This document shows, in pieces, positions 25,889-64,000 of a stretch of 64,000 nucleotides of DNA; within the stretch, counting starts at the first letter, position 1, and each line of letters starts with the position of its first letter. The stretch spans positions 53,908,019 to 53,972,018 of the forward strand of contig CM049306.1 in the NCBI GenBank assembly GCA_026874595.1. The letters are read 5' to 3'. The DNA comes from Sipunculus nudus. Taxonomy: Eukaryota; Annelida; Sipuncula; Golfingiida; Sipunculidae. Under the pieces are notes generated by a model. That model saw nothing but the letters and a program-made list of their open reading frames with translations, was not told where the DNA came from and did not search any database. Both the position numbers and the translations under genes were made by a program.

Positions 25889-26330
25889 TATAGAAGCATT
25901 CTCTAGTTGCATGAAAATAAGCTGTACCCATCATGTGCATGTTTTTTATCTTATTTAGGTCTTATCCTGTAGTGAACCTTGTATCTGAAATATTAGTCCT
26001 GACATTTCACCCTGAATGCCATTTTAGTAACCTGGTGTGGCAACAAGATAAGTGGCTTTGGTATAATTCGTCGTCATTTTCAAAGGCTATTTCGTTATTT
26101 TAAGAGTGTTTTTATGAGCCATGAACAGATGATCAAAAGGTGCTGTTGTGTGTGTAAACAACATATTACTTGCACCCGACCCACAGACATACTACAACCG
26201 TGCATTATTTTACCTGTCGATGACCTGGGACCCAAAGAGGTTGGGTGAAGGGATTACTTCTTAGATTTCAAGCATTTCATGACAGCTTCATATGTAAGTA
26301 AATCTTTACCCAACTAGATTTATCTTCTTT
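25889..26330 (+). repeat. Duplicated block 1, first copy (partner 46,862-47,307)
   Basis: Shared from AGAAGCATTCTCTAGTTG through GTGCATTATTT-like sequence, AAAGAGGTTGGG, GAAGGGATTA, TTTCATGACAGCTTC and CCAACTAGATT, all in the same order and orientation. No common reading frame is evident. Confidence 0.85.
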
Positions 26331-28674
26331 AGGGGTGTTTGTAGTTATGAGATTAACCATTGGTCCCTCAACCAGGACGATGTATGACCGTATCCATATC
26401 ATATAAGGAAGTACCGGCTTCTGTGGTTCATGGGTGAAGCACAATAATCAAAGTCGTGAGGTCGTGAGCTCGAATCTCAGTCGAGATATTTTTCACAGTC
26501 GGCCCCAACCAAGGGTGAGCGCTCTGCAGGCTTAAGGGAAGGTCGTGCCCAGTGATTCACTCACAAAAAAAGTGCGCCTTTCGGTATGACCGAACATTGG
26601 AGACCATTACACAACCATGGCCCGCAGGTGCAGTAGTCACCGAGCCTTGTTAACGAAAGGTTATGCAAGGAGAAAGCTTGTGCTACTATCTTGTCACGTA
26701 GCCGGCAAACGGAATGGAAACTGGACTTCTAAATATACCTGATTAAACTAGCATTAGAAATAGCTACCTCCAACCAATATTAAAAAAATTAAAGCTGCAA
26801 AATCATCTTCCTCTTGAATTAGAACTGATGACATTTCTGGCTTCCTTTGTGTATGTATTAATGGTCTAAGGATAATTCTAGTTATGAAAGGTTTTTCTGA
26901 TAACGCCTCCGTGAATGATGTATGAATATGTTTATCAGCAATGTGTTTGTAAACAGCGATGTTGACAAACGGGAAACATGTAACCTAAGGTGGTAAGTTG
27001 CAGATAAGCGGAGATGGAAAGGTATTGTTGCAAAACACCATTTGCAAAGCTCTGGCTTATCCGTCTAGCCACGAGATGCCCTTGATTTATTTTTTTAGCG
27101 CACCCCCATATTATAAGCAAGTTGATTTAAACAAAAGAAGCAGCCTGTGTGCGGTGATATCCGCATTTTCTGGTCTATTTTTTTTTAAAAAAGGTTCCAA
27201 GGGATTACCTTTAGTTTATGAAGGTCAGATAGGTGTTGAGGCCCCTTTAAAATTTATATAAATAAATAACCTGTGTAAGCATTATCGACTCGTGCCCTCG
27301 AAAAACAATATGCATAAGTCAGACAGAGGCTGTATCTAGTCGAGTCAAAACAACATATAACGGAAGCTGGCTGGGTAAGGTCATGTGCCGATGAATCGTA
27401 TAGCAAGCGCCGTGTAGTTTTATTTTCAAAGTACAGAATGTACGAGGTTGTGTACACGAAGCAGTCATGCACACCTGCCAGGGAATTTCGGCCAAGACAT
27501 GCGGGTTATCAAAAGGACATCCGGCCGGCCCGTCCGCAGGGATGCAGGATCGATAGAAATAAGCGGTATGAAGCCAACGGGCGGTCGGGGAACTTCCGGC
27601 CAAGGCACATAGCCCGTGGTTTAAATTCCATTACGCAGCGATCAAAGCCTTAATGACGTGACATTCAACCCTGCCAAGTCCAACTATACCGGTGTTAACT
27701 GATGCGAGATTATCTTCTCACGATAATGTGACTAAGTGAAGACGACGATCTTGCGGGATTGAATTCAAGGATGTCATGGTCAAACATCCTTTACCGTTCA
27801 CTCTTTAAGAAGATAAATCTTCAATTTTCAAAGAGTTCATACAGTGGTTTGTCATGTTTAACCATGTAAGATCATAGTGACCTTTTTTTGTAGTTTCACC
27901 AAAAATACTTTAACTAGGACCTTTGTTGTAACTAAAAACAGGATATTTTCAATGAGCTGTAACTGATCATTAGTAAAGAATGTGGATTTGATTATTTTTT
28001 TACCATTGACTGTAACCCATATCTTGGTCCAGGATATCTTTCACATACTAGTAATTTTCAAAATAAAGGCAATGTCTCCTGAATGAATCTGCTTTAGTAA
28101 TCCGGCAATGGAGATATTTAACGCCACCTGCTTATTACAATAATTGCCAGATATGTAGGTAACATGTTTTCTGAACGTTTCTGAGAGTTCACTTCAAGAT
28201 ATTATAAAAAGCCTTAATTAATACCGGTGTTATATGATGCTAGATTAATTTCTGGTGATTGTATTACTAAGTCGAAGTCCCTTAGGTATAAAATTCAGCA
28301 TGTCATGGTTTTCAGACAAATTTCTTCAAATTCACTTCTTAGGATGATAGATGTTCTGTAAAATATGATAAATTCCACACAAATGAGAATATTTACACAC
28401 CAAAACGCAGAGTGAACGTTTTTTAAGCTTATCATGCCTTGTTCTCTGTTCAATTTGCGAAGATCGCTCGATTGTCTGTAAATAAGCATGATAGTGGCCA
28501 TATGATACGATGGATGTTTAAAGCCATCTGGTATTGGCTGTATGAATATTTAATTCACCAGCCCTGGAACTATTACATAACACTCACAAAGTCAATACAA
28601 CATGACCACATGACACGCTGTATTTGGCTTGCTAGGTTATACAGTCAGTCTACTGCAGCTGTTTGGATATATAA
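26331..28674. other. Segment private to the first duplication copy
   Basis: No supported gene. It contains a tRNA-like segment near 26,420-26,500 (listed separately) and a GC-richer island at about 27,470-27,640, in which GGGAATTTCGGCCAAG and GGGAACTTCCGGCCAAGG form a direct repeat. Confidence 0.45.
26420..26500 (+). repeat. tRNA-like sequence, possible SINE head
   Basis: An A-box-like GTGGTTCATGGGTGAAGCAC and a B-box-like GAGCTCGAATCTCA are spaced as in a tRNA. The fold is poor and no intact tRNA is claimed. The downstream CGGCCCCAACC and GTGATTCACTCAC could be the SINE body. Confidence 0.3.
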
Positions 28675-29145
28675 TTAATTTCTGTCTGAGATGTAATGTG
28701 TCACGTGAGTATTGACGAAGGAGTAGACGTCCTTCAGTTAATCTTTGAAAAGGAATATCCCATTGGGAAGAATAGGAGATAACCTCTGTCAAGATAGTTT
28801 TCATGCTTATGTGCTATGTCTTCTGTTTTCAATCGTCAAGACTGGTCAGTAGAATCTGGGTAACCAAAGCACCAAATGAGGTTAAATATAACGTGATAGG
28901 TTTTCTGGTAAAAACAAGCTGCCCTGCATCCACACGTCATTCGGTATTATTCCTGTTTAAATATAAATCAGTGCAAGCTTCCCCTTCGTCTTTGATGCAG
29001 CGAATATTAACACATCTAAGTGTCACATCTAAGCCTCCATATACTCAAAGTACTGACTGTTTACACTGTCTTTTAATAGCCCAATTAAATACGGTTCTTT
29101 ATCGTTAGGCCTTGCCATATATTGAATTTGATATCATGCAGTGAG
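28675..29145 (+). repeat. Duplicated block 2, first copy (partner 52,631-53,130)
   Basis: Collinear from TTTCTGTCTGAGATGTAATG through ACGTCCTTCAGTT, GGGAAGAATA, TCAGTAGAATCTG, AAATATAAATCAGT, TTTGATGCAGCGAATATTA, CACATCTAAGCCTCC and AAATACGGTTCTTTAT. No frame is shared at useful length. Confidence 0.88.
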
Positions 29146-62022: not shown

Positions 62023-62122
62023 TATATATATATATATATATATATATATATATATATTTATATATATATTTATATATATATATATATATATATATATATA
62101 TATATATATATATATATATATA
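62023..62122. repeat. (TA)n microsatellite
   Basis: A TA run of about 100 bp with two TTTA interruptions. It corresponds to 37,102-37,166 in the first copy. Confidence 0.96.
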
Positions 62123-64000
62123 CCATCTCATTCTTGGAGCCGTATGGTTTCGCATATAACTTATAAGATCAACAGAAATTCGGTTTCATACGATTTCAGC
62201 TGTTGTCGAAAACATGTTTTATGTGTATCTGTGATATAGAATACGATGGCTGATGTTAGACTCTGAATAAATATTATCTACAACCATTTTGATGCTTAGC
62301 TCACGATGAGAAAGACCGGGAATACTTCAAAATATACTTAATCTGTAAATATTCCGCTTGCTTACTCTTTAACACAAAAAGGGAAAAAGCTTGCATCGGG
62401 CAGGATCAGTGGCACAAAAAACAAAAACAAAAACCAAAACGCGCACGCCGCTTGTTGCACAATTTCTCAATAAAGATTTGTATAGGTTCCAACCTATGTT
62501 TCTTCCGAGTATCTTCTTTTTTATTTCTTTTCCTTTTTTTAAATTGTCCTGCTTGCGAAAACTCTCTGATTGAGATATTATCATTAAATCTCACGATAAT
62601 ATCTCGAGATCATTTTTTTCTGTGTTTGGAATCAGCCATTGTACCAACAGACTTTGATATATTTTCTTAGATCTTGTCCTCCGCATCCAGATCCCTAGAT
62701 CGGAAGCTGTGTGAGTGAAGAAGCGGGTCCAGAGGGGTTCCTCATCTTCTTTCAACCGCAACAAGCTTTCGTTTGTTTCATACCAATCTCTGCGATGAAG
62801 ACCCGAACACCCATTCCGGATTTATTTAAGGTTTTTTATTTAGTCTCCATGTGTGTAACCCATCTTCTTTTCAAAATCCTTGATCTGAACTTGATCAACA
62901 CTTCGTGTGACAAACAGGGGCTTCCAGACACAGGATCTGGCTTTTAAATGCTCAGTAACAATGTAATCCTAATGTAATTAGAGAATTCGGGTGTGGTCAG
63001 AAAAAAAGAGTTATTCGGTTTAAATTTTGCCCGTACATGTCCACTTGCCATCAAAGTCTCTCCGCCTGGACGCTGCCGTCGATTCCTGGCACTACTCTTG
63101 TGCCACATCCCCGCACCCTCATATTGACAGGTTTATTGCTCCCAGTTTCTTGAAACGTCTCATGGGGCCTGCCATTTTGTGCTTGTGCGCAAGGTTACTT
63201 GCAAACATGAGAAAACATGCCCATTTTGTAAATTACGGCATGGTTTATTCCATTTAATGAAACCTTGGTAGAAACCGTCAACTGAGGAGATACAAATACT
63301 ACACTCAATAAAAAGGCATCTGCCCTTTTGACACATATAAACAAGTTTTTACTACTTATTCAGTGACAGTTCTAATATTATTCAATATAAAATATAAATA
63401 TATTCTGTATAAAGTCTGTGTAAAGTTCGTATAATATCTGTAACTATGCAATGAATGGAGTAGGTCCTAAGACGGACGAGAAAGTCGCACCCTTCAGTGT
63501 CAAAATGTTAAAGCATTCTTCCATAAAAATGTCTCATGGCGCCCTTTTGCCTCCAAATTGTCCATTTTAGTGTCTATTCAAACGCGAAGTTTCACAAAAT
63601 AAACAAGCAGACACACATTAACCCTGTTATTCTTTGTAGGATCCTTAAACGAGACAATATTATTATAAAAAATGTAATTAATAAAAAAATATCCTTGATA
63701 ACGGAACGTATTATACCTTGGTTAGTAATGACTTCTAGAAAAGCTTAGGAAGGTGTAGTTCGGTCACTGCCATGATGTGGTGGATTCTACGTCATCGGAG
63801 TCCGAGTGCAAGTCCGAGTCCAAGGTACTCGGGTTCAAGCCCAAGTCCGAAACCCTAGACCTTTAAGTCCAAGTCCAACCTCCTCCGGTCAGAGTCATTT
63901 GATACCCTTGTCCATATCATACACAAATCTCCTTTTTAAAAGAAATGTTAAATGGAAATTTGAGAATATCATGTATAATTTTAGTTGTTAGTTTATTCAT
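62122..64000 (+). repeat. Duplicated block 4, second copy (partner 37,167-38,840)
   Basis: Collinear counterpart continuing to the end of the window, so the duplication extends beyond it. It carries about 630 extra bases at 62,452-63,083. Confidence 0.9.
62452..63083. other. Insertion private to the second copy, with GC-rich repeat copy 3
   Basis: It lies between GCGCACGCC and TGGCACTACTCTTGTGCC, which are near-adjacent in the first copy (about 37,517-37,528). Its 62,725-62,890 part resembles the repeat at 6,930 and 9,290 (GGGTCCAGAGGGGTTC, CAAAATCCTTGATCTG tail). Confidence 0.5.

Follow-up and report, generated by a model that had tools for sequence, protein, structure and literature searches.

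A head-to-tail tandem duplication of an apparently gene-free segment of about 24 kb in the genome of Sipunculus nudus

The stretch of DNA considered here (the window) comprises 64,000 nucleotides of the sipunculid Sipunculus nudus (GenBank assembly GCA_026874595.1, contig CM049306.1, positions 53908019-53972018) and lies within a 110.9-Mb contig of an assembly of 1.43 Gb in 153 contigs. It contains a segment of about 24 kb, here termed unit A, which is followed directly by a second, diverged copy, unit B, running past the window end. The window was first compared with itself; the window with 100 kb of flanking sequence on each side (264 kb in all) was then compared with itself, the best 140 of 362 matches being considered, and the matching blocks were subsequently compared in detail. 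Positions beyond 64000 are window coordinates carried on into the downstream flank, and features of the units are given on the plus strand.

In the comparison of the window with itself, direct matches link 28.7-39 kb to 52.6-64 kb. By BLAST (Basic Local Alignment Search Tool), 12 blocks of 28.7-39.1 kb recur at 52.6-64.3 kb with order and orientation kept, at offsets of 23,954 to 25,690 and with E-values from 5e-18 to 0. When the downstream flank is included, as a preliminary description of the window had suggested, the duplication is again seen and continues from 41.7-52.6 kb against 64.5-79.4 kb, the blocks of 41744-52636 matching 64464-79425 in unchanged order. Unit A, as delimited by the collinear blocks and the alignment of its ends, occupies 28667-52631 (right end approximate). 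Unit B covers 52621-64000 in the window (left end approximate) and ends at about 79425, 15 kb past the window end. Two adjacent and collinear copies, arranged head to tail, make up this tandem duplication. Of the four repeated blocks in the preliminary description, the repetition of 28.7-39.1 kb at 52.6-64.3 kb stands, its first block is a dispersed repeat (see below), and the extent given was too short. As units A and B abut at about 52.62 kb, the stretch of 38.9-46.9 kb belongs to unit A and does not separate the copies. The "reshuffled gaps" of the same description are real in so far as the spacing between aligned blocks differs, owing to stretches private to one copy; the order of the aligned blocks is not reshuffled.

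The junction between the two units lies at 52605-52645, where the left part resembles the outer right end of the duplication (at about 79.42 kb) and the right part resembles the outer left end (at about 28.67 kb). Rightwards alignment pairs the left end of unit A with the junction, and leftwards alignment pairs the junction with the end of unit B. Over about 2 kb on each side, the outer flanks do not resemble the inner sequence to which they correspond. The motif TAATTTC is found at the junction, at the outer left end and at the outer right end. Its seven bases are short and could coincide by chance in AT-rich DNA, which weighs against reading the junction as a microhomology join.

Divergence between the units was determined over 19 anchored blocks with 15,120 aligned columns, inter-anchor sequence and private stretches being excluded. 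Units A and B differ at 1484 of these columns (9.8%), that is, they share 90.2% identity over gap-free aligned columns, compared with 71-91% per BLAST block with gaps; by custom, segmental duplications are delimited by an identity of 90% or more over at least 1 kb. The profile is patchy, and the best single split separates the segment 44160-51085, in which 245 of 4620 columns differ (5.3%), from all remaining columns, in which 1239 of 10,500 do (11.8%). The earlier proposal that the segmental duplication is old is supported. A two-stage origin, considered because the second half is more similar by BLAST identity, was dropped after the aligned columns had been profiled, since 44.2-51.1 kb accounts for most of the difference.

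The figure of 11.8% bears on the suggestion, also made in the preliminary description, that the assembler had put two diverged haplotypes of a single locus one after the other. Haplotypes are expected to differ by no more than a few percent, and 11.8% substitutions outside 44160-51085 lie above that range of heterozygosity. That the copies number just two would suit such an artefact, but private stretches are present in both of them, not a single N base occurs across the 264 kb, and an uninterrupted junction joins sequence from both outer ends, beyond which the flanks are dissimilar. A haplotype duplication is therefore very unlikely.

The number of copies was addressed by genome-wide searches with three shared pieces, the best 40 candidates being scored for each piece. 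The piece 30736-32189 has two full-length places, in A and B, at 80% identity (best 40 of 378 candidates), and two near-full-length places, again in A and B, were found both for 42500-44430 (85%; best 40 of 4632 candidates) and for 48461-51370 (94%; best 40 of 567 candidates). No third near-full-length place appeared for any of the three among the candidates scored, and more such places among the unscored candidates are unlikely. Every piece holds a shorter repeat, namely an old repeat at 31825-32140 with relatives elsewhere among the scored candidates, a repeat embedded at 43112-43794 and, in the third piece, an element with relatives of about 70% identity elsewhere, which is discussed below. 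Apart from these short embedded repeats, the three pieces behave as low-copy sequence and not as a dispersed repeat. Beyond the units but inside the 264 kb, 11 matches to the 19 shared pieces were obtained, which measure 35-455 bp and are in no case collinear; a third copy of the unit was not found there, short repeat matches only.

A dispersed repeat is, by contrast, what the preliminary description had taken for the first block of the duplication (25887-26331 against 46858-47305), as this sequence also matches 67554-67993 and a site that precedes the window by 46 kb. Of these copies, the one at 46858 falls within unit A and corresponds in position to the one at about 67.55 kb in unit B. The unit of about 24 kb could itself be regarded as a large mobile element, given that it is discrete and has sharp ends. 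However, the restriction of the three pieces to A and B at near full length among the candidates scored, the lack of a further copy of the unit in the 264 kb and the negative Pfam result for its 11 tested open frames make this reading scarcely credible.

With regard to coding content, tblastx segments of at least 25 residues between 28.6-40.5 kb and unit B show no third-position bias evident by eye. A third-position excess is present in 12 tblastx entries of at least 30 residues, the strongest being 51410-51565. The latter is also the best of 159 segments (ungapped runs of at least 25 codons) in a test for synonymous excess, with a p of 0.006 that is uncorrected for 159 tests and is as chance gives, and it has no Pfam match. 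Pfam returned no match for ten open frames of the unit at an E-value of 0.1, nor for one further frame (48093-48398) at 0.01; together, these 11 frames comprise six of the 18 open frames of at least 90 amino acids in 28667-64000 and five shorter ones. Rfam and tRNA scans of the window likewise gave no matches. Within the tests made, the earlier statement that everything is non-coding is thus supported, and the unit is apparently gene-free as judged from its sequence, while the same tests could have missed a non-coding gene or one whose exons are very short. The selective retention which the preliminary description had found at odds with non-coding content need not be invoked, no coding constraint having been detected.

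The strongest fixed interval of low divergence is 48162-50687, with its counterpart in unit B at 68.9-71.4 kb; here 91 of 2500 columns differ between A and B (3.6%), against 1393 of 12,620 columns (11.0%) outside it. Its z is -10.4, the most extreme of 500 column permutations reaching -4.6, and amounts to about -7.6 once overdispersion elsewhere is allowed for. An old dispersed non-coding repeat element of about 2.26 kb is located at 48436-50692; it is present in both units, shares about 70% identity with its copies on other chromosomes and differs between A and B at 77 of 2233 columns (3.4%). Terminal inverted repeats of this family were not seen in copy A, the only copy searched. Other repeats shared by the units are not low in divergence, as 81 of 671 columns differ in 43112-43794 (12.1%) and 59 of 306 in 31825-32140 (19.3%). 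We consider the stretch of about 48.2-50.7 kb to be probably the product of later gene conversion between the copies.

Several observations weigh against this account. The trough almost coincides with the one element at 48436-50692, which conversion alone does not predict, and divergence is reduced as well in the dispersed repeat at 46858-47305 (24 of 446 columns, 5.4%), which sits in the wider low segment. Moreover, divergence outside 44160-51085 is overdispersed, with a variance of 72.6 against a binomial 26.0 per 250 columns, so that a single conversion tract is a simplification. The coincidence with a single element would rather be in line with purifying selection on a functional RNA or regulatory element, as would the fact that the divergence of the element is less than one third of the 11.8% outside 44160-51085. 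On the other hand, no coding signal rises above chance, there is no Rfam match at gathering score, and the path of the element to copy A is as long as in other copies. The tree on which the last point is based contains A, B and the six highest-scoring of the 38 other scored candidates. Kimura two-parameter distances over the element core are 0.261-0.328, except for 0.033 between A and B and 0.103 between the copies L033 and L034, and path lengths reach 0.200 for A and 0.197 for B, against a range of 0.155-0.216 among the six other copies. Because the branch of the element is not shorter than those of its relatives, later gene conversion fits best. As a test for the time after the duplication, the tree is weak, since 0.179 of the 0.200 of copy A predates the A/B split and a post-duplication slow-down would hardly show. 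Taken together, preservation of the low stretch by selection in place of conversion is unlikely, and it is slightly less likely still that the 2.26-kb element has a function at this locus, for instance in regulation or as a source of RNA, and has been conserved in both copies while its surroundings drifted. L033 (C4) and L034 (C8) share flanks by eye and, given the distance of 0.103 between them, seem to lie within a larger dispersed duplication or repeat.

Both units carry insertions of their own, as had been noted previously, and several of these are dispersed repeats. There are 18 gaps of at least 60 bases between A and B, and 14 private stretches were tested against the 264 kb; similar sequence elsewhere covers at least 0.8 of the stretch in six cases, 0.45 in one and 0.18 or less in seven. 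Target-site duplications were sought at 11 gaps, and one was clear, the 10-base AATAATTGTT which flanks a 707-bp insert in unit A, a dispersed element at 34370-35076. Also private to A are 30347-30735 and 42059-42440, each of which contains a copy of one short dispersed repeat, about 340 bp long (as judged from the best 140 of 362 matches), and 44442-46680, an element with an internal tandem array of units of about 339 bp. At 39070-41743, 2.67 kb are found only in A, with 151 bp at the matching place in B; as this stretch has no other match in the 264 kb, an insertion in A and a deletion in B are both possible. Unit B has 2.0 kb at 53133-55143 against 300 bp at the matching place in A, including a 24-bp tandem array at 54322-54507. 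Most of a 4.85-kb private stretch of unit B is formed by 74116-78967, which constitutes an inverted pair with 99431-104271 (79-89%) and contains an open frame that resembles a retroelement endonuclease, by eye only.

The array inside the private element of unit A (44518-46539) is related to one at 192-2183, in opposite orientation; both consist of units of 337-339 bp, and a GACGGACA microsatellite comes after the array at 192-2183. Central satellite-like repeats, along with subterminal inverted repeats and a 3' palindrome, are features of HINEs, non-autonomous Helentrons described in Crassostrea gigas (PMC7492417). Measured against the available part of that paper, the likeness concerns the central tandem array in 44442-46680 and in the array at 192-2143, as well as the GACGGACA microsatellite after the latter, which is comparable to the GTCC/GTCY microsatellites of HINEs, whereas the monomer is 337-339 bp here and 140-180 bp in the most abundant HINE clusters (PMC7492417). 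The resemblance is one of the layout of array and microsatellite alone, and relates to inserts and not to the duplication.

Further repeats surround the units. At 1805-6313, a 2.26-kb piece of a LINE-like (long interspersed nuclear element) retroelement and part of a repeat unit form a direct tandem with 99.3% identity, which reflects either recent duplication or a local error of assembly; Pfam matches to RVT_1 and zf-RVT fall in 2225-2632 and 5044-6525, respectively. Among the best 140 of 362 matches, a second local direct duplication is located beyond the window at 97567-111307. It pairs 97567-99433 and 104354-106120 with 107412-109544 and 109602-111307 (77-90%), and 99431-104271 interrupts its first copy. 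Long open frames at 134926-138627 and 157146-159695 resemble, by eye only, pol pieces of LTR (long terminal repeat) retroelements.

One old local tandem duplication, followed by mostly neutral decay, private insertions and later conversion, is the history that we favor, with a probability of roughly 85%; taken separately, the tandem duplication is nearly certain and the conversion less so, though probable. A single local event would have doubled a non-coding segment of about 24 kb head to tail, perhaps joining the copies at the AT-rich TAATTTC via a replication-template switch or end joining. The copies would then have drifted to about 12% substitutions, presumably neutrally, under no detected coding constraint, and each would have acquired stretches of its own, several of which are mobile elements. 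Gene conversion or unequal exchange would later have reset about 48.2-50.7 kb; further patches in 44.2-51.1 kb were probably reset too.

A comparable arrangement is known from the Paris sex-ratio drive of Drosophila simulans, where a 37.5-kb tandem segmental duplication is likewise a direct tandem copy of tens of kb on one chromosome (PMC3276153). The available part of that paper discusses microhomology-delimited gaps in its duplication model and names gene conversion only in order to exclude it for a 10-kb identical stretch (PMC3276153). Unlike the Paris duplication as presented there, the duplication in Sipunculus is old, has no gene detected in it and has no known phenotype (PMC3276153). 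A literature search without a species term turned up no account of the latter, which says little.

The duplication is an ordinary event that has been cleanly preserved, and it is both larger and simpler than first described. Its value is that of a tidy case, which offers a readable junction, no detected gene, insertions acquired separately by the copies and a divergence profile with a sharp trough, and in which the concern over haplotype duplication can be answered largely, if not finally, from the assembly alone. If the trough does reflect conversion, sequence exchange between non-coding tandem copies can still take place long after their origin.
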